Shown in pieces: positions 38,584 through 49,953 of a DNA stretch of 64,000 nt (within the stretch, counting starts at the first letter, position 1; each line of letters begins with the position of its first letter). The stretch covers positions 1-64,000 of the forward strand of contig JAIMAG010000002.1 in NCBI GenBank assembly GCA_023512135.1, given 5' to 3'. Both the position numbers and the translations under genes were made by a program. The notes beneath the pieces were generated by a model that made no database searches, had not been told where the DNA came from, and saw only the letters and a program-made list of their open reading frames with translations. This DNA is from Terriglobia bacterium. Lineage in GTDB: Bacteria > Acidobacteriota > Terriglobia > Acidiferrales > UBA7541.

Positions 38584-39378
38584 GTGACAACCAGGTCGCC
38601 CCGCAGACCGCGGTTCACACCGTTATCGGGTGAACAATCTCCCTCGTCGGCTACACTGGCCGGGGAACCGATTGCCTCGCCAGTAACCGATTGGCACCCA
38701 AGCGGAAACCGGCACCAGCGAGCCGAAGCGGTCTCGCCTTATTTTTCCCCTTCGACTCCCCACAAAGAACAGAGTAACGAGGCAACGGAGAGTCCGGCTC
38801 GAGCTGCTGCGAATTCTGCCAGCCGCGCCCTCAGGTCCGATGCAGTGGCTGTACAGCCCAGCTCGGACATAGGATTCGTCTTGTTGAAGCCTCCGAGCAC
38901 GGTGCTGTATGCGAACGCCGAAGCCATGCGGATCTTGGCGTATCCGCACGATCCGACCGTGGTGACTTCGTTCGACAAACTGGTGGAGGACAAACTGGGA
39001 TTTGTTGTCGAGGAGCTCGCCGGTGAGGCGAATTTTCTCGCCGAGATGCTTTCGGGCCGCCGACGGTATCTGTGCCGGGGGTATCGCCTGGAATCGAGCC
39101 GCGGGCGCAGCGGACCGCTTCCGGTGGCTTTGCAATTCGAGCGCGCTTGCCGTCCGGTTCTGGATGTGCGCGCGGCTGCCGAACGCTACCGGTTGAGCCC
39201 CCGTGAGCGCCAGACGCTGGCGCTGGCCGTGCAGGGCCTGAGCAACAAAGAAATCGCTGCGCATATGGGTGTCAGTCCCAACACCGTAAAAACCTTCCTG
39301 CGGCTGATCATGGGCAAGATGGGGGTCAGTTCTCGCGTCGGTCTGATTCGCAAGACGATCCAGATTCTCGTCGGCTAG
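38584..39378 (+). CDS. LuxR-family transcriptional regulator with PAS-like sensor region
   Basis: The product is 264 residues from a GTG at 38584 (weak GGAG upstream); the first 80 residues look disordered, so a later start is possible. Residues about 93-185 resemble a degenerate PAS fold (DIGFVLLKPPSTVLYANAEAMRILAYP). Residues about 199-257 are a clear GerE/LuxR helix-turn-helix (LSPRERQTLALAVQGLSNKEIAAHMGVSPNTVKTFLRLIMGKMGV). There is no receiver domain with a phosphorylatable Asp. It lies between the secretion/cytochrome operons and the copper-oxidase cluster, so it could control either. Confidence 0.85.
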   Translation: MTTRSPRRPRFTPLSGEQSPSSATLAGEPIASPVTDWHPSGNRHQRAEAVSPYFSPSTPHKEQSNEATESPARAAANSASRALRSDAVAVQPSSDIGFVLLKPPSTVLYANAEAMRILAYPHDPTVVTSFDKLVEDKLGFVVEELAGEANFLAEMLSGRRRYLCRGYRLESSRGRSGPLPVALQFERACRPVLDVRAAAERYRLSPRERQTLALAVQGLSNKEIAAHMGVSPNTVKTFLRLIMGKMGVSSRVGLIRKTIQILVG

Positions 39379-39617: not shown

Positions 39618-42600
39618 ATGCCCAGCCCCCGCGGCCGATACCGTGTAGCCTACTGGCTGTTTGTAATTTTCCTGGGTGCGCTGTGCAGCGCACTGCTTCC
39701 GACTCCGACGGCAGCGCAGTGCGCGCGCACCATCACCGCTCGCGTGGTTGCCATCGACCAGCCGTTCTTCTGGAACCGGCTGGGCGCCACGAATCCTGCT
39801 GGCATGATCTTTGCGCTCGAGCGCGACGTCGTGCCCGAGCAGGGGACCACGATCGGGCCCGGCAATGTGCGCCTGCGCGACGGCAAGCGCCCACGCCCGC
39901 TGGTCTTGCGCATGAACGTGGGAGATTGCCTGCAGATTTATTTTACGAACCTGCTCGACCCTGTTCCCGCCAATGATCAGCCGGCCACGCGCAATGCGGG
40001 CATCCATGTGGAAGGTTTGCAACTGGTCGGCAGCATCGCCTCGGACGGCTCGTTTGTAGGCAAGAACGCGAGCAGTCTGGTAGGACCGGGGCAATCCGCA
40101 ACGTACACCTTCTATGCGGAGCGTGAAGGCGCACACCTGCTCTACAGCACGGCGGCCAATACCGGCGGTGAGGGCAACGGCGGTCAGTTGAACACCGGCC
40201 TGTTCGGCGCGGTCAACGTGGAGCCAAAAGGTGCCGAATGGTATCGCAGCCAGGTGACGCGGGCCGACCTGGAGCTGGCCACCGTGGGTACGACACCGGC
40301 AGGCCAGCCCATCATCAATTACCAGGCAGTGTATCCACCCGGACATCCGTTCGCAGGCCTGCCCATCCTGAACATGCTGAAGGGCAATGAAATTGTGCAC
40401 TCGGATCTGAGAGCCATCATTACCGGACCGAATGCAGGCCGTTTCCCGCCGGGAACGTTTCCGCCGGTCACACCGGCTGTGGATCGGGAACAGCCCTTCC
40501 GAGAGTTCACCATCATCTACCACGACGAAATCATTGCGGAACAGGCGTTCCCGGAGTTTTTCGAAGATCCCGTGCTGAGTCACACGCTGCACAGCGTGCG
40601 GGATGCGTTTGCGTTCAACTACGGCACCGGAGGCATCGGCGCCGAAATCCTGGCCAATCGTTTGCTCGTCGGCCCGATGCACAACTGCGCCGAGTGCAAA
40701 TACGAGGAGTTCTTCCTGACCTCCTGGGCAGTCGGCGACCCGGCAATGGTTGTGGATATCCCCGCCAATGCTCGGGATTCACAGGGAAATCTGATCATTG
40801 GACCCAAGGCCACCAAAGCGCTGTATCCGGACGATCCCTCGAACGTGTATCACAGCTATCTGCGCGATCACGTGAAGTTCCGGATTGTCCATGCAGGTTC
40901 AAAAGAACACCACATCCACCACCAACACACGCACCAGTGGCTGCACACGCCCGACAGTGACAACTCCAACTACCTCGACAGTCAGGCCATTGGCCCGGGC
41001 AGTGCATTCACGTTGGAGATGCTCTACAACGGCGGCGGCAACCGGAATCAGGCTGTCGGCGATTCAATCTTCCACTGTCACTTCTATCCGCACTTCGCCC
41101 AGGGGATGTGGGCGCTTTGGCGTGTCCACGATGTGCTGGAGACTGGCAGCGTGCTAGATGCCGAAGGCCGTCCCGTGCCGGGTACCCGGGCGCTCCCGGA
41201 TGGAGAAATCGCCGCCGGCACGCCTATTCCTGCTGTCGTCCCGCTTCCGACCATTGCCATGCCACCCCTGCCCGGTGCGCAGGTGGCGATTGTCCACGGA
41301 CAGGCGGTGATTACCGGCGACGGCAACCCGGGGTTCCCGTTCTTCGTGCCGGGCGTGGCCGGCCACCGACCCCCGCATCCGCCGCTCGACACGGTGGACG
41401 ATGGTGGCCTGCCGCGCCACGTCATCGTCAATGGCACCTTCGAGGAAGCGCACACGCGGCTGGATTTTCACAAGACGCTGCTCACCGCGGACGCCATCGA
41501 ACTGCCGGAGACAGGTACACCGATTGAAATTGCTGCTATGAACTTCCACGCACAACGGGAGCACCCGAGCTACAAACCCGACGGCACGCCGGCGAACTTT
41601 ATTGTCAACGGCCTGCCCCCGGCGCCCGGTGCCCCGTTCGCCGATCCTTGCATCGATGACTTCGGCAATCCTGCGGGTGTCCCCCGAATCTACAAGGCTG
41701 CCAACATTCAAATCGATGCCAAGTTGAACAAGGCGGGCTGGCATTTCCCGCAGCAGCGCATCCTGGCGCTGTGGGGCGATGTGGAAGCGACGCGCACCGG
41801 ACAGCGGCCGCCGGAGCCGCTGTTCTTCCGTGCGCATTCCGGCGATTGCATCACCTATTACCACACCAACCTCGTGCCGCACGAATATCAGCTCGACGAC
41901 TTCCAAGTGCGCACGCCGACCGACATCATGGGTCAGCACATCCACCTGGTGAAGTTCGACGTGCTGGCTTCCGATGGCGCCGCCAATGGCTTCAACTACG
42001 AAGACGGCACCTTCAGCCCGGGTGAAGTGCTCGAACGCATCGAGGCGATCAATGCATTCGGGGGGCTGCTGCCGTTTGAAGGCGGAACGCGCGTGCAACT
42101 GCATCCCGAAGCCCATCCCTTTTTTGGCGAGCTGGGTGCGCAGACAACCATTCAACGGTGGTACGCCGATCCCCTGTTGAATGCTCAGGGGGTGGACCGC
42201 ACGCTGACCACCGTGTTCACCCACGACCACTATGGCCCGTCCACGCATCAGCAGGTGGGCATGTATGCGGGTCTGGTGATTGAACCTGTCGGATCCACCT
42301 GGCGGCATCCGGAAACCGGAGAAATCTTTGGCGGGCGCTTCGACGGTGGCCCGACTTCCTGGCGGGCCGACATCCTGACCGTCAATCCGGCCGACAGCTT
42401 CCGCGAGTTCATGATCGAGTTTGCTGACTTCCAGCTTGCCTACGAGGCGGGCAACGTCGGTATCCCTGATCCGGACAAAGCGATCAATCCGCCGGGGCGC
42501 GTCGAGGTGGGCCTGCCGTTCCTGCTGGCGCCGCCTGATGTTTGCCCGGGCGGAGTGCCGCCACCGTGTCCGGAAGCCATTTCTGCCGATGATCCCGGTA

Positions 42601-44669
42601 CGTTCGTGGTGAACTACCGCAACGAACCGATCCCGTTGCGCGTGCGCGACCCGCAAACGAACACGCAGGCCGCGGGCATTGCCGGCGACCTCTCGCACGT
42701 GTTCCGCTCGAACGTGCTGCGTGCGGATCCGGCGTTCAACCAGCAGCCGAACTTCTATCCGCCGCTCACCGCCGATGTGCGGCCCGGCGATCCTTTCACA
42801 CCGCTGCTCCGCGCCTACGCGCAGGATAAGATCCAGATTCGCATCCTGGTAGGCGCGCACGAAGAAGGACACAACTTCACCGTCGTCGGTTTGAAGTGGC
42901 CGTTCGAAGCCGCCGACCCGAACTCGGGCTGGCGGAACAGCCAGATGATGGGCATCAGCGAGCACTTCGAATTCGTCACGCCGTTGCCCTTCCAGAACCC
43001 GTTCGTGCCCTTCGTGGACTATCTCTACATGCCCGGCGCGGCCACCGATGACCTCTGGAACGGTTTGTGGGGCCTGCTCCGGGTCTATAACAACCTTCGG
43101 CCAGACCTCTACCCGCTGCCCGGTTGGCAGGGCGATCTGAAAGTGACCAAGCTGCGCGAGTTGGTGACCGCCACCACCAGCAGCTCCGGCACCACGACGA
43201 TGTCCACGACCGAGTCGACGACGGACTCCAGCATGACTTCCGGCGACACCACGACGCTTTCCACCACCGAGCAAACGCTGAGCACCCAGGAGCTCAACGC
43301 CCAGAGCACGATTCTGGCCACCTCGGGGGAGAGCTCGCTGACCACAACCGAAACCACTTCGCTGACGAACTTCGGTGGCTGGGGCCTGCTGAACTGCACG
43401 GTGCGCGTGCTGGACGTCACGGCAGTCACCGCGCAGCAGGCATTGCCCGGAGGCAAACTGATCTACAATCCGCGGACCGTAAACGGTGGTCCGTTGAACG
43501 ACCCGACAGCCATCCTGTATGTCCGCACGAGCGATCTGGACAGCACCGGCAAGCTGAAGGCCGGTGTGCCCATCGAACCGCTGATCGTGCGCGCCAACGC
43601 GGGCGAATGTGTCAAGCTCCGTCTGCGCAACCGACTGCCCACGACGCTGCCCGATCTGGATGGCTTCAACACCCTGCCCATGATCGTGCGCAAGTTCAAC
43701 GCAAATCAGGTGAAACCTTCGCCCTTCGTCGGCCTGCGCACGCAACTGGTCTTCACCGACGTCGCGCTGAGCGCCGGCGTGAACGCGGGCTTCAACCCCG
43801 TGCAGACGGTTCGGCCTGGGTACAGCCGCCCCTACGTGTTCTACACGGGCGATATCCAGGTGAATCTTGATGGCAGCATCCAGGCCACCCCGATCGAGTT
43901 CGGAGCCACCAACCTGATCTCCTCCGACCCGATCAAACACTCGAACAAAGGCGCCATCGGTGGTCTGATCATCGAGCCGCCCGGATCCACCTGGTCGGAG
44001 TCCAGCAAGTCTCGCGCCACCGCGCTGGTCACCAAGGCAGACCGGACGCGGTTCCGCGAATTCGTCCTTCTGTTCCAGGACGACATCAACATGCGCTTCG
44101 GCGACGGACGACCGATTCCCAATACGGCCGAAGCCGAAGACCCGGAGGACTCCGGGCAGAAGGCGGTCAACTACCGAACCGAGCCGATGTGGTTCCGGAT
44201 GGGCTTCGCGCCCGACACGCCGCTCGAAACCACACGTACTTTTGATTTCACCAACGTGCTCTCGAACGGCAAAGTCGGTGGCGATCCGGTCACCCCGGTG
44301 TTCACCGCACAAGTCGGCGAGAGTGTGCGTTTCCGCGTGTTGAAGCCGGCCGGACACGCGCGGAACCACGTCTTCATGCTCCATGGCCACATCTGGGAGG
44401 AGCTGCCGTACATCAACGGTTCGCTCCTGCTCGGCAGCAATCCGCTGTCGGAATGGAAAGGTGCCCAGATGGGCCATGGCCCCACGAACCACTTCGACGT
44501 CCTGTTGAAGAACGGCGCCGGAGGCCGTTTCGGTATCGTGGGCGACTACCTCTGGCGGGATTTCGCCTCCTTCACCTTTGACGGCGGCATCTGGGGTCTG
44601 TTCCGGGTGACCCGTAGCAATGTGAAGACGACGTCAGAGACGACCTCGGACCCGACAGTAATTGAGTAA
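39618..44669 (+). CDS. Giant secreted multicopper oxidase, MnxG-like
   Basis: The product is 1683 residues. The ATG at 39618 has GGGAGG just upstream. The signal peptide ends near TPTAAQ. Cupredoxin-type domains open with CARTITARVVAIDQPFFWNRLGATNPAGMI. Copper-ligand motifs include HHIHHQHTHQW (from residue 431), FHCHFYPHFAQGMW (H486, C487, H488: type 1/type 3 site), QHIHLVKFD, THDHYGPSTHQQVGMY (H869, H871), HEEGHNFTVVGLKW and HARNHVFMLHGHIW (H1580 to H1591). A Ser/Thr-rich linker (about 1181-1250) separates the last two cupredoxin-like domains. Most laccases are about 500 residues; this size and motif set resemble bacterial Mn(II) oxidases of the MnxG type. Substrate is inferred only. Confidence 0.85.
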   Translation: MPSPRGRYRVAYWLFVIFLGALCSALLPTPTAAQCARTITARVVAIDQPFFWNRLGATNPAGMIFALERDVVPEQGTTIGPGNVRLRDGKRPRPLVLRMNVGDCLQIYFTNLLDPVPANDQPATRNAGIHVEGLQLVGSIASDGSFVGKNASSLVGPGQSATYTFYAEREGAHLLYSTAANTGGEGNGGQLNTGLFGAVNVEPKGAEWYRSQVTRADLELATVGTTPAGQPIINYQAVYPPGHPFAGLPILNMLKGNEIVHSDLRAIITGPNAGRFPPGTFPPVTPAVDREQPFREFTIIYHDEIIAEQAFPEFFEDPVLSHTLHSVRDAFAFNYGTGGIGAEILANRLLVGPMHNCAECKYEEFFLTSWAVGDPAMVVDIPANARDSQGNLIIGPKATKALYPDDPSNVYHSYLRDHVKFRIVHAGSKEHHIHHQHTHQWLHTPDSDNSNYLDSQAIGPGSAFTLEMLYNGGGNRNQAVGDSIFHCHFYPHFAQGMWALWRVHDVLETGSVLDAEGRPVPGTRALPDGEIAAGTPIPAVVPLPTIAMPPLPGAQVAIVHGQAVITGDGNPGFPFFVPGVAGHRPPHPPLDTVDDGGLPRHVIVNGTFEEAHTRLDFHKTLLTADAIELPETGTPIEIAAMNFHAQREHPSYKPDGTPANFIVNGLPPAPGAPFADPCIDDFGNPAGVPRIYKAANIQIDAKLNKAGWHFPQQRILALWGDVEATRTGQRPPEPLFFRAHSGDCITYYHTNLVPHEYQLDDFQVRTPTDIMGQHIHLVKFDVLASDGAANGFNYEDGTFSPGEVLERIEAINAFGGLLPFEGGTRVQLHPEAHPFFGELGAQTTIQRWYADPLLNAQGVDRTLTTVFTHDHYGPSTHQQVGMYAGLVIEPVGSTWRHPETGEIFGGRFDGGPTSWRADILTVNPADSFREFMIEFADFQLAYEAGNVGIPDPDKAINPPGRVEVGLPFLLAPPDVCPGGVPPPCPEAISADDPGTFVVNYRNEPIPLRVRDPQTNTQAAGIAGDLSHVFRSNVLRADPAFNQQPNFYPPLTADVRPGDPFTPLLRAYAQDKIQIRILVGAHEEGHNFTVVGLKWPFEAADPNSGWRNSQMMGISEHFEFVTPLPFQNPFVPFVDYLYMPGAATDDLWNGLWGLLRVYNNLRPDLYPLPGWQGDLKVTKLRELVTATTSSSGTTTMSTTESTTDSSMTSGDTTTLSTTEQTLSTQELNAQSTILATSGESSLTTTETTSLTNFGGWGLLNCTVRVLDVTAVTAQQALPGGKLIYNPRTVNGGPLNDPTAILYVRTSDLDSTGKLKAGVPIEPLIVRANAGECVKLRLRNRLPTTLPDLDGFNTLPMIVRKFNANQVKPSPFVGLRTQLVFTDVALSAGVNAGFNPVQTVRPGYSRPYVFYTGDIQVNLDGSIQATPIEFGATNLISSDPIKHSNKGAIGGLIIEPPGSTWSESSKSRATALVTKADRTRFREFVLLFQDDINMRFGDGRPIPNTAEAEDPEDSGQKAVNYRTEPMWFRMGFAPDTPLETTRTFDFTNVLSNGKVGGDPVTPVFTAQVGESVRFRVLKPAGHARNHVFMLHGHIWEELPYINGSLLLGSNPLSEWKGAQMGHGPTNHFDVLLKNGAGGRFGIVGDYLWRDFASFTFDGGIWGLFRVTRSNVKTTSETTSDPTVIE

Positions 44670-44685
44670 TGGTGACTGTGGCTCT

Positions 44686-44713
44686 TGGGGTGGGTGCGCT
44701 TGCATCCACCCCA
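44686..44713 (+). other. Strong intercistronic hairpin after the multicopper oxidase gene
   Basis: TGGGGTGG-GTGC, loop GCTT, GCAT-CCACCCCA give a 12-bp stem with one G-U pair, 17 bases after the stop. There is no T-run, so it probably protects the upstream mRNA or lowers expression of the downstream genes. Confidence 0.6.
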
Positions 44714-44852
44714 GGGCCAGCTCCGGTTATCTGCGGACGGAGCAAAGGGGCAGGCAACCGCTGAGCGTGTGTTCGCAAGCAACGAAGGAAAGTTTTCTGG
44801 CAGCGGCGCGACCCGCTGCATTTCTTTCTCACCTCAGGGAGAGGGAATGGTG

Positions 44853-46916
44853 ATGACCATGCGATGGTTCGCCGCAGGCGCCCTGGCCGCAGCATTGTTC
44901 GCTGGCCTGGCGCATCCGCAGAATCCCCCGGAACCGCAGGCGCCGACCCAGCCACTACAGACGACACCGGGCAGCACCGGCGACGCCTCCAAACCGGCCG
45001 AATCTTCCTCGCCGGCCACGGCGGCTGCCGCTCGCGTGCCGCCAAAAATCTATCGGCAGCATTTCGAGCAGGAGGGCATCGCCGTGGAACTGGTCGTGGA
45101 ACCCACCGGTGCCGGCACCCGAGTCGACGACCCTCCCGATCCGCTGATCGAAGAGCGCGAGGCCGTTATCCGTTTCAAGATCGCAGACAGCAGCGGCGCT
45201 CCGCTCCCCGGGCTGTTTCCGGTGGCCTGGATCGACCCGCGCACGGCACCGGATACACCCAGTTCTGACGATTGCCGCCGCAAGGTGCAGGCTTTCTTCC
45301 AGGGTAATTTGCGCACGCGGCCGGCGGTGGACCTGAATTCCTATTTCGTGATGTCGTTGAACGACGACGGCACCATCCTCGTCATCGATCCGCAGATCGG
45401 TTTTTCCGACAGCAAGCTGTTCACGATGATCAGCCTGAAAGGGCCGGGCGCGGACTGGGTGATCGACAACGATCACAAGCGGCTGTACGTGAGTGTACCC
45501 CAGGCCAACGAGGTAGCCGTGATCGACACCCAGCGTTGGCGCACGCTGGCCTACGTGCCCTCCGGCCCGAATCCAACCCGGGTGGTGCTCCAGCCGGATC
45601 GCAAGTACCTCTGGGTGGCCAACGACGCTCCGGCAGATCAGCCGAGCGGTGTCACCGTGATCGACGCTGCCGAGATGAAAAAGGTCGCCGAACTCAGGAC
45701 CGGTCGCGGCCATCACCAGATTGCAGTCACGGCCGACGATCGTTTTGCGTTCGTCACGAACAGCGCCGACGGAACCGTTGCCGTCATTGACGTCCGGCAA
45801 CTCGCCGTGCGCCAGACGATCCAGACGGGCAAACAGCCGGTCGCGCTGGCCTACACACCACTGGCGGGCGCGGTCTACGTTGCCGATGCGAACACGGGCA
45901 GCGTCGCCGTGATCGATGCCGAGCGACACACGCTGCTCCGCCGCCTGCAGCTTGATCCCGGACTGAATTTCGTGCGTTTCGAGCCGCGCGGCCGGTTTGC
46001 TTTTCTCACCAACGGCGCTCGAAATCTGCTTTACATTCTGGATGCTTCCACGCACCAGTTGCGTTTCAAGCTCGGGGTGGGCCGCTGGCCGGATCAGGTG
46101 GCGTTCACCGATTCGTTTGCCTACGTCCGGCTGCGCGATGCCCAGCAGGTGCAGATTATCGAGCTGGCCGACTTGACCGAGTCCAAGTTGCCCGAGGTCC
46201 TGGATTTTCCTGCGGGCCAGACTCCTCCTTCGCGCGCCGGTGCGCCCATCGTGGCCGATGCCATTGTCGCGGCCCCGGAAGGGAACGCAGCCATGATCGC
46301 CAATCCGGCCGACCGTCGCATCTACTACTACCACGAAGGCATGGCCGCGCCGAACGTCAGCTTTTCCAACTACAGCCGTCGCGCACGCGCCGTGCTGGTT
46401 GCCGAGCAAAACCTGCGCGAGACCGAGCCGGGTGTCTATTCCACCTCGTTCCGGCTGACCGGGGCAGGCGTCTACGACGTGGTCTTCTATTTGAACTCGC
46501 CCCGCGTGCTGCACTGTTTCGATCTGCGCGTGGTAGTGGACCCGCACATCCAGCGCGAGCGCGTAGCCATTCAGATCGAGCCTTTGCTGGAAAATGTCCG
46601 GCTGCCGGTGAATCAGGAATTCCGCTTCCAAGTGCGTGTGCGCGATTCGCTGACGTCGGCTCCGCGCAGTGACCTGGCGGACCTGGGCGCAATGGTCTAC
46701 AACAGCTCCGGCTGGCGCAAGCGTTTCTACGCGCGCGCGCTGGGCGGTGGAATGTACGAACTCACTGTGCGAGTACCGCAGGCCGGTTTCTACTACCTGT
46801 TTTTTGAGGTGCCGTCGCTCGGACTTCGACTGGGCAAATTGCCGCATGCCGTGTTGCAGGCCAGCACCGAGACTTCGCCCGTTGCGGCATCAGCCGCTCC
46901 GTCCCCGGGACCCTGA
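44853..46916 (+). CDS. Exported YncE/cytochrome-cd1-like beta-propeller protein with C-terminal Ig-like region
   Basis: The product is 687 residues from the ATG at 44853, with AGGGAGAGGG upstream; ATGs at 44847 and 44859 are alternatives. A signal peptide and Pro/Gln-rich spacer are followed by an N-terminal beta-domain (about 60-140). A YncE-like propeller follows: DPQIGFSDSKLFTMI, KRLYVSVPQANEVAVIDT, KYLWVANDAPADQPSGVTVID, DRFAFVTNSADGTVAVIDV and GAVYVADANTGSVAVIDA. About 490-660 look like Ig-type modules (AGVYDVVFYLNSPRVLHCFDLRVVVD). No haem motif is present. As a neighbour of a copper oxidase and two SCO proteins, it is probably a periplasmic partner or metal-binding accessory. Confidence 0.82.
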   Translation: MTMRWFAAGALAAALFAGLAHPQNPPEPQAPTQPLQTTPGSTGDASKPAESSSPATAAAARVPPKIYRQHFEQEGIAVELVVEPTGAGTRVDDPPDPLIEEREAVIRFKIADSSGAPLPGLFPVAWIDPRTAPDTPSSDDCRRKVQAFFQGNLRTRPAVDLNSYFVMSLNDDGTILVIDPQIGFSDSKLFTMISLKGPGADWVIDNDHKRLYVSVPQANEVAVIDTQRWRTLAYVPSGPNPTRVVLQPDRKYLWVANDAPADQPSGVTVIDAAEMKKVAELRTGRGHHQIAVTADDRFAFVTNSADGTVAVIDVRQLAVRQTIQTGKQPVALAYTPLAGAVYVADANTGSVAVIDAERHTLLRRLQLDPGLNFVRFEPRGRFAFLTNGARNLLYILDASTHQLRFKLGVGRWPDQVAFTDSFAYVRLRDAQQVQIIELADLTESKLPEVLDFPAGQTPPSRAGAPIVADAIVAAPEGNAAMIANPADRRIYYYHEGMAAPNVSFSNYSRRARAVLVAEQNLRETEPGVYSTSFRLTGAGVYDVVFYLNSPRVLHCFDLRVVVDPHIQRERVAIQIEPLLENVRLPVNQEFRFQVRVRDSLTSAPRSDLADLGAMVYNSSGWRKRFYARALGGGMYELTVRVPQAGFYYLFFEVPSLGLRLGKLPHAVLQASTETSPVAASAAPSPGP

Positions 46917-46947
46917 ACCAGCCACCACTCGCACGAGGAGGAACACG

Positions 46948-47607
46948 ATGCTTGCTCGCAGCTTCTGGCCGTTTGCGTGGACGGTTTTCCTGCTGACCCT
47001 TGCTCACACGACTTCCGCCCAGCAGCCTGCCGACCCCCACGCCCACCATCGCCAAGCGATAAGGCCATCGGCCGAAGGCGGTGTCGAATCCATGTCCGAA
47101 ATGAAAATTCCTGATCTGGTCGTGATCGATCAAGATGGTCGCGAGCGTCGGTTCTACTCCGAGCTGGTCCAAGGACGCGTGGTGGCAGTGAATTTCATCT
47201 TCACCACCTGCACCACGATTTGCCCGCCGCTGGGCGCAACGTTTGCGCGACTGCAACAGTTGCTGGGGGATCGAGTCGGTCGCGACGTCCATCTGCTCTC
47301 GATCAGCGTGGATCCGGTCGTGGACACGCCACCGCGCCTGAAAGCCTGGGGGGCCCGGTTCGGTGCCGGAGACGGGTGGACGTTCGTCACCGGAACAAAG
47401 GCGAACATCGATCAATTGCTCCGCGCGCTCGGCCTGCCCGTGGGGCCGAAGGAAGAGCATCCGCCGCTCGTGCTGATCGGCAACGAAGCGGCCGGCCACT
47501 GGACTCGCGCCTTCGGTTTCAGTTCTGCCAACCGACTGCTGGAGCTGATCGATACGGCGGCCGCTGCACCGCACCGTTCGGCCATGCTCCACAGCAACCA
47601 CCACTGA
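46948..47607 (+). CDS. SCO1/SenC-family copper chaperone (first of two)
   Basis: The product is 219 residues; AGGAGG precedes the ATG at 46948. A signal peptide ends near TTSAQQ, followed by a His-rich segment (DPHAHHRQ, 29-36) that may bind metal. The thioredoxin-like fold carries the copper motif CTTIC (C88, C92) in FIFTTCTTICPPLG and the distal His at 171 (KEEHPPLVLIG). SCO proteins deliver copper to cytochrome oxidase CuA or to other cuproenzymes, or reduce their cysteines. cbb3 oxidase has no CuA site, so the clustered multicopper oxidase is the natural client. Confidence 0.92.
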   Translation: MLARSFWPFAWTVFLLTLAHTTSAQQPADPHAHHRQAIRPSAEGGVESMSEMKIPDLVVIDQDGRERRFYSELVQGRVVAVNFIFTTCTTICPPLGATFARLQQLLGDRVGRDVHLLSISVDPVVDTPPRLKAWGARFGAGDGWTFVTGTKANIDQLLRALGLPVGPKEEHPPLVLIGNEAAGHWTRAFGFSSANRLLELIDTAAAAPHRSAMLHSNHH

Positions 47608-47649
47608 GTGCCCGAAACTTTCTGCGTTTTGTGCGGACGGAGGAAGAAA

Positions 47650-48300
47650 ATGGTCTGGAGACAAATTCCGCTCGCCGTGCAGTTACGTCAGATCGCGGTC
47701 CGCTGCAGGATTGGGCTCGCGCTGGCGTTGCTGGCGTGGGTCGCACCGGCGGCGGCGCAGTCAGCCAGCCCCGCAACACAGGAACTTTCGCCAGCCCACA
47801 AGTACTTCACCGACGTCATTCTCGTGAATCAGTTCGGCGAACCGCTTCGACTCTACAGTGATCTCCTGAAGGGGAAGATTGTCGTCATCAATTCCTTCTT
47901 TGCCACCTGTACCGGAGTCTGTCCGGTGATGAACCGCAAGATGGCGCAGATTCAGGAAACACTCGGTGACCGCGTCGGCCGTGACGTTTTTCTTCTCTCC
48001 ATCACCGTGGATCCAGAAAACGATACCCCAGCGCGACTGCGCGACTATGCGGCCTCCTACGGTGCGCGGCCCGGCTGGCATTTCCTGACCGGCAAACGCG
48101 AAAACGTCGAACTGGCGCTGCGCAAGCTGGGCCAATATGTGGCTGCGCGCGAAGACCACCTGACGCTTATGATTGTCGGCAACGAACCCACCGGCCTGTG
48201 GAAAAAGGTTCTGGCACTGGCGGACATCGGTCAAATCCTGGATACCGTGCTTTCCGTCGTCAACGACAAAGGCCCGGCTGCTCCGACGGAAAAAGAGTAA
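47650..48300 (+). CDS. SCO1/SenC-family copper chaperone (second of two)
   Basis: The product is 216 residues from the ATG at 47650 with GGAGGAAG upstream; a longer start at 47608 is less likely. The leader has a hydrophobic core (IGLALALLAWVAPAAAQ). Copper site: C87 and C91 (FFATCTGVCPVMN), with H170 (REDHLTLMIVGN). The DPENDTPARL segment is typical of SCO. It follows its paralogue by 42 bases. Two SCO copies in one operon suggest separate tasks, such as copper insertion and thiol reduction, or two copper sites. Confidence 0.93.
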   Translation: MVWRQIPLAVQLRQIAVRCRIGLALALLAWVAPAAAQSASPATQELSPAHKYFTDVILVNQFGEPLRLYSDLLKGKIVVINSFFATCTGVCPVMNRKMAQIQETLGDRVGRDVFLLSITVDPENDTPARLRDYAASYGARPGWHFLTGKRENVELALRKLGQYVAAREDHLTLMIVGNEPTGLWKKVLALADIGQILDTVLSVVNDKGPAAPTEKE

Positions 48301-48330
48301 ACGGTGCCACCTCGTTTGTGGGAGGGGTGG

Positions 48331-49953
48331 ATGCAGCATTCCGGGCATGCAGGGTTGGCAGACGTTGTTCTTGCCCGCTCGAGCAGAGCGCCGTGGCTCT
48401 GCGTTCTGCTGGTGTTGCTGGCAGTTGCGATGAGCCTCGGCGCGCAGGTGGAGCTCACGCCACAGGAGAAACGAGGCAAGCAGATTTTCCTGACCGGTAC
48501 CAGCCCCTCCGGCAAACCCATCGTTGCGCGGCTCGGCGAAGAATCGGTCGAGGTGCCGGCTTCCACGCTCCCTTGTGCGGGCTGTCATGGTTACGACGGC
48601 CGAGGCAGGGCCGAGGGTGGCGTGGTGCCTTCGGCCATCACCTGGGAGGCTTTGACCAAACCTTACCAGGTCGCCTTACCCGGCGGTCGGCGGCGTCCTC
48701 CGTATGACGAAGTCAGCTTGCGCGCTGCCATCGCCCTCGGGCTGGACCCTGCGGGGAACGCTTTGAATCCGGCCATGCCCCGCTACGGTTTTTCGCGGGA
48801 AGACATGGCCGATCTGATCGCCTACCTGAAGCGTCTCAGCGCCGATCTCGATCCCGGACTCAGTGACCACACGATTCGCATCGGTACCGTTCTGCCCGAC
48901 GCCGGCCCGCTCGGCGAACTGGGTGCGGAGGTGCGCGGCATCCTGCAGGCTTATTTCGATGAGCTGAATGCCGCAGGCGGGCTGTACGAACGCAAACTGG
49001 AGCTGCGCACCCTGCCGCTTCTTCCGGGACCGGGAGCCGAGCAGGCCGTACGGGATTTTCTGACACGCGAGCAGGTCTTCGCTCTGATTGCGCCGTTTAC
49101 AGCCGGCATGGATCGAGCAATCATGGCTGTTCTCGAAGAGCGGCAGGTACCCACCATCGGCGCGCTGACTCTGTATCCGCAGGTGAAGATTCCCGTCGCG
49201 CGCTATTCGTTCTACTTGATGGCTGGCCTGCCAGATCAGGCCCGCGCGCTGCTCGACTATGCAGCCACTCATCTGGCGGGTGCCGGTCTTGAAGTCGTGC
49301 TCATCGCGCCAGAAGGCGAAGCGCTCGAGACCATCGGCGCCGCGCTGGAGCAGCAGTGTCAGAAGCGGAACTGCCGCATGCTTCATCGCCTCGGCTACCG
49401 CGCCGGTGCCCTGAGTCCACGACAGGTGCTGGCACGCTTCCCGAACACCGAGGGCCAGCTCTGCTTCTTCTTCGGCACGGGCCCGGAGACGGCCGCTCTG
49501 CTGGCTGAAGCCGACCGCATCGGCTGGCTTCCCTATCTGTTTTTCTCCGGTTCGCTGCTCGGCAAGGAGCTCTGGGAAGCACCCGCACGCTTCCACGACC
49601 GAATCTTTCTGTCCTATCCGATGGCCCCGCAGGAACAAACGCAGGCCGCACTCCAGCAGTTCCGCGAACTCGTGCAGCGTCACCAGCTGACCAGCAAACA
49701 CCTGGCTTTTCAGCTTTCTGCGCTGGCCGCGGCGAAAATCTTCGTCGAGGCCGTGCGCCGCGCCGGTCGCGAACTGAGCCGGGAAAAGCTGGTGGACACC
49801 CTGGAGAGTTTCTACAAGTACGAAACCGGCCTGCTCCCGCCGGTTAGTTTCGGCCCCAATCAGCGCATCGGCGCCGGCGACGTCTATGTTGTGCGCGCCG
49901 ACCTGGAAAAACGCCAGCTCATCGTCGCCTCGCGCTGGTCGGCTCCGTACTGA
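48331..49953 (+). CDS. Fusion of monohaem cytochrome c and periplasmic amino-acid-type binding domain
   Basis: The product is 540 residues from the ATG at 48331, which has GGGAGGGG just upstream; a GTG at 48304 lies in frame. After a signal-anchor (about 22-38), a cytochrome c domain spans about 40-155 (haem at C82, C85, H86 in LPCAGCHGYDGRG, and MPRYGFSREDM for the sixth ligand). Residues about 165-540 form a type I periplasmic binding fold like LivJ (IRIGTVLPDAGPLGELG; AYFDELNAAGGLYERKLELRTLP; ALIAPFTAGMDRAIMAVLEE). No ABC-transporter genes are nearby, so the binding domain is probably a sensor or docking module tied to electron transfer. Confidence 0.88.
   Translation: MQHSGHAGLADVVLARSSRAPWLCVLLVLLAVAMSLGAQVELTPQEKRGKQIFLTGTSPSGKPIVARLGEESVEVPASTLPCAGCHGYDGRGRAEGGVVPSAITWEALTKPYQVALPGGRRRPPYDEVSLRAAIALGLDPAGNALNPAMPRYGFSREDMADLIAYLKRLSADLDPGLSDHTIRIGTVLPDAGPLGELGAEVRGILQAYFDELNAAGGLYERKLELRTLPLLPGPGAEQAVRDFLTREQVFALIAPFTAGMDRAIMAVLEERQVPTIGALTLYPQVKIPVARYSFYLMAGLPDQARALLDYAATHLAGAGLEVVLIAPEGEALETIGAALEQQCQKRNCRMLHRLGYRAGALSPRQVLARFPNTEGQLCFFFGTGPETAALLAEADRIGWLPYLFFSGSLLGKELWEAPARFHDRIFLSYPMAPQEQTQAALQQFRELVQRHQLTSKHLAFQLSALAAAKIFVEAVRRAGRELSREKLVDTLESFYKYETGLLPPVSFGPNQRIGAGDVYVVRADLEKRQLIVASRWSAPY

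Follow-up and report, generated by a model that had tools for sequence, protein, structure and literature searches.

We conclude from profile, alignment, tree and gene-order comparisons that a five-gene operon in the window, the 64,000-nucleotide stretch of acidobacterial DNA analysed here, is probably a Pseudomonas putida-type mnxG operon in acidobacterial form. This assignment is based on family membership and gene order, on a complete complement of copper ligands and on purifying selection in the genes. Kinship and gene set together make the oxidation of Mn(II) to Mn oxide the likely activity of the multicopper oxidase (MCO) encoded by its first gene. The full mnxG-type operon would thereby be extended to the Acidobacteriota, where it was not reported in the literature searched. 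The operon is ordinary as a system, and its importance lies in being a specific, assayable candidate for Mn oxidation; we know of no assayed member of the acidobacterial MCO clade. The components described at 39618–49953 in the first-pass annotation, namely a secreted 1683-aa MCO, a propeller, two SCO proteins and a cytochrome-binding-protein fusion, were all recovered as open reading frames with Pfam and NCBIfam matches (Table 1).

Table 1. Features of the mnxG-type operon and its upstream neighbour (window positions; copper ligands as MCO residues)
Feature	Position	Strand	Basis
LuxR-type (GerE) regulator, candidate only, just upstream of the operon	38584..39378	+	
MnxG-like multicopper oxidase (MCO), 1683 aa, secretion signal	39618..44669	+	Profile, PDB, ligand alignment
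Type 1 Cu ligands in MCO	H432, C487, H492, M497		
Type 2/3 Cu ligands in MCO	H435, H437, H486, H488, H774, H776, H869, H871		
YVTN/YncE-like beta-propeller, signal peptide	44847..46916	+	Cytochrom_D1/YNCE/Lactonase and YVTN repeat matches
SCO-family protein 1 (CTTIC, His171)	46948..47607	+	SCO1/SenC match
SCO-family protein 2 (CTGVC, His170)	47650..48300	+	SCO1/SenC match
Cytochrome c (CAGCH) and Peripla_BP_6 fusion, LivK-like binding domain	48304..49953	+	Pfam/NCBIfam

The MCO gene starts with an ATG at 39618, preceded by GGGAGG, and its stop lies at 44669. The protein matched the NCBIfam model for the manganese-oxidizing multicopper oxidase MnxG (NF041487) with E=0 over nearly the full length of the model (positions 1–588, 692–787 and 819–1894), at a score of 1554 bits, half the equivalog cut-off of 3100 bits; six Pseudomonas MnxG proteins scored 3825–3922 bits. 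The only relevant match in the PDB was Bacillus MnxG (9bxa, E=3e-108). All 12 ligands of the type 1, 2 and 3 coppers were conserved in the alignment, and the copper motifs follow the order C-D-A-B, as in 9bxa and the Pseudomonas relatives. Generic Cu-oxidase models of Pfam scored just under or under their cut-offs, which indicates that the MnxG-like family is much diverged from laccases. A Ser/Thr-rich linker precedes the last quarter of the protein (window positions about 43190–43400). An AlphaFold model of residues 36–1194 had a mean pLDDT of 32 and was set aside.

In trees built on 60 and 27 sequences, the window MCO and a 94%-identical homologue (L011) grouped among Acidobacteriota homologues. 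The Pseudomonas MnxG proteins formed a clade close by, and the Bacillus-type protein fell outside; the deep branching order in the broader MCO clade is unsure. The kinship with MnxG proposed in the first-pass annotation is thus borne out by the profile match, ligands, trees and operon content: the MCO was not placed with laccases or nitrite reductases, and no type 2/3 ligand was missing after alignment. A second Pseudomonas MCO (L173), considered as a candidate McoA, proved in the tree to be another MnxG-like copy. Based on rpoB, the window host adjoins the Blastocatellia. The genome of L011 is a metagenome-assembled genome (MAG) labelled Bacillota (HOT.MB2.40), which is acidobacterial by rpoB and about 99% identical to the window genome in that gene. 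All five operon genes are kept there, and dN/dS values of 0.05–0.21 between the two genomes indicate that they are under purifying selection.

The five genes lie on one strand in the order MCO, propeller, SCO, SCO and fusion, separated by gaps of 177, 31, 42 and 3 bp, and are followed by smpB. The best starts of the SCO genes, 46948 and 47650, each have GGAGGA upstream, and both proteins carry a CxxxC motif and a distal His. The binding domain of the fusion is predicted to be LivK-like (model mean pLDDT 79; best Foldseek E=2.7e-20), a predicted fold which does not give a ligand. The LuxR-type gene also precedes the operon in L011, the closest relative. An Rfam scan of 36–51 kb of the window gave no match, for instance to an Mn riboswitch, and promoter and terminator scans returned signals at chance level.

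The same arrangement recurs among relatives. A scan of GTDB genomes gave 582 confirmed candidates, of which 80 loci were listed, so the following are counts over loci and not frequencies. Among 75 loci, the window and retrieved loci whose sequence runs on for 5.5 kb or more after the MCO gene, 46 have exactly the propeller, SCO, SCO and cytochrome fusion after it, including most of the Pseudomonas ones. Of 58 fusion ORFs, 57 have the haem motif, and the one that lacks it is half of a split gene; CxxxC occurs in all SCO homologues of the retrieved loci (124/124). Several Acidobacteriota loci have a single SCO gene after the MCO gene, and in three loci (L024, L035 and L043) some or all accessory genes lie upstream of it.

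This co-conserved gene order supports a tie between the SCO proteins and the MCO. The first-pass annotation had reached the same link by exclusion, reasoning that the cbb3 oxidase lacks CuA and leaves the two SCO proteins without another client. The terminal oxidase in the window is indeed cbb3-like (CcoN 278 bits, below the cut-off of 583, with an adjoining CcoO-like gene), but the argument fails because a CuA oxidase is encoded elsewhere in the genome: contig 48 carries a COX2 with the CuA motif CTELCGMGHQRM, and a third SCO protein is encoded on contig 10, bringing the genome's total to three. The region upstream of the operon (9078–34504) encodes multihaem cytochromes, a QrcB/QrcC-like molybdopterin/Fe-S fusion, NrfD and the divergent cbb3 oxidase.

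The distribution of the family would fit transfer and loss. MnxG-like proteins are rare in Acidobacteriota (9/396 genomes), and among 41 genomes of near relatives, including the window's own, three match, one of which aligns only with the final part of the model. MnxG-like genes also occur in assemblies of presumed anaerobes (L014, L031, L038, L039 and L041), namely Ca. Methanoperedens (on a 721-kb contig), Jettenia, a Desulfobacterales chromosome and Syntrophobacteraceae, in some cases alongside propeller, SCO and cytochrome fusion genes. Multicopper oxidase domains have been mentioned for ANME-2d (PMC5244752). Given these relatives, different members of the family may use different substrates or acceptors. 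Multiple copies were seen in Methylobacter luteus (L033), with two neighbouring MnxG-like genes, and in a gammaproteobacterial MAG (the genome of L054), with three above the NF041487 cut-off. Further removed is a group on alphaproteobacterial plasmids (L005, L009, L010 and L171), in which SCO accompanies MnxG-like proteins of great length; three of its four loci also have a hypothetical gene of propeller size and a gene for cytochrome c or something similar.

Mn(II) or Fe(II) had been suggested as the substrate; family, ligands, tree and operon point to Mn(II), and Fe(II) gained no specific support. In the mechanism that we propose, the MCO would be exported and would receive copper from the two SCO proteins. 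Mn(II) would be oxidized at its type 1 copper, first to Mn(III) and then to Mn(IV) oxide, and the type 2/3 cluster would hand the electrons to O2, with the propeller and the cytochrome c fusion as conserved accessories. In P. putida GB-1, Mn oxidation was lost in an mnxG/mcoA double knockout, according to the title of Geszvain 2013, a paper cited in PMC10732223. Cytochrome c maturation genes have been implicated in Mn oxidation by Pseudomonas (PMC11409713), so that the cytochrome c fusion may plausibly act in electron transfer or assembly. The fusion itself is already known, being listed in the GB-1 operon, and offers a testable route to why Mn oxidation in Pseudomonas needs cytochrome c maturation.

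Several other readings of the operon were weighed. In the first, family and operon are the same, but the physiological substrate in this clade would be something other than Mn(II), such as Fe(II), Cu(I) or an organic reductant, and Mn would be oxidized as a side reaction or not at all. The 42% identity to the Pseudomonas proteins, the score under the equivalog cut-off and the broad spread of the family, presumed anaerobes included, agree with such a substrate; however, the accessory gene set is that of known Mn oxidizers, all copper ligands match, and no copper-resistance family was matched among the subset of window ORFs scanned with Pfam, so that we consider a different substrate rather unlikely. 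That the MCO is simply a laccase, a copper-nitrite reductase or an oxidase for copper resistance is very improbable. Generic models for Cu oxidases and nitrite reductases did give weak matches below threshold, but none with an E value better than 0.0004, whereas MnxG gave E=0, and the MCO also differs in length, motif order and operon. A laccase or nitrite reductase identity was rejected on the MnxG profile, the 9bxa match, the ligands and the tree.

Alternatively, the operon may be an electron-transfer system in which the MCO and the cytochrome c fusion exchange electrons, so that metal oxidation would be coupled to the respiratory chain, or to a different acceptor in anaerobes. The conserved cytochrome c domain, the maturation genes implicated in Pseudomonas (PMC11409713) and the richness of the window in multihaem cytochromes and Qrc/complex-III-like genes are consistent with this, yet the intact type 2/3 cluster means that O2 can be the acceptor, and the effects of ccm may be indirect; we judge this reading unlikely. 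A further extension sees in the mnxG operon a module spread widely by transfer, whose MCO and cytochrome c exchange electrons and which, in Acidobacteriota and presumed anaerobes, serves respiration or oxygen/metal redox chemistry and not simple mineral deposition; this is speculative and appears quite improbable. Mn(II) oxidation by an mnxG-type operon is the reading that we retain as likely.

The Bacillus mnx system had been taken as the model, but by operon content the P. putida mnxG operon is closer. Bacillus MnxG (9bxa) belongs to the same MCO superfamily branch and shares the order of copper motifs, but it is a far smaller protein (1227 aa) and a more remote relative, and a Bacillus-type plasmid relative (Priestia) has neither propeller nor cytochrome fusion downstream. 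The GB-1 operon consists of mnxG, a YVTN propeller, two SCO genes, a cytochrome c/ABC-binding protein and SurA (PMC11409713, Table 4), and the same operon (PputGB1_2447 and downstream genes) is described in PMC8218464. The window differs from it in the phylum of its host, in an MCO of 1683 versus about 1950 aa with about 42% identity to Pseudomonas homologues, in having smpB where GB-1 has the SurA-like sixth gene, and in the upstream LuxR-type gene, with no MnxS1/S2/R adjoining the operon. Loci from Acidobacteriota MAGs (e.g. L020, L024 and L013) share 60–71% MCO identity in the best segment and have the same accessory genes nearby, sometimes with one SCO or with genes upstream. With GB-1, the window shares the first five genes of the mnxG operon in identical order, and its MCO has the same copper ligands as the Pseudomonas homologues.
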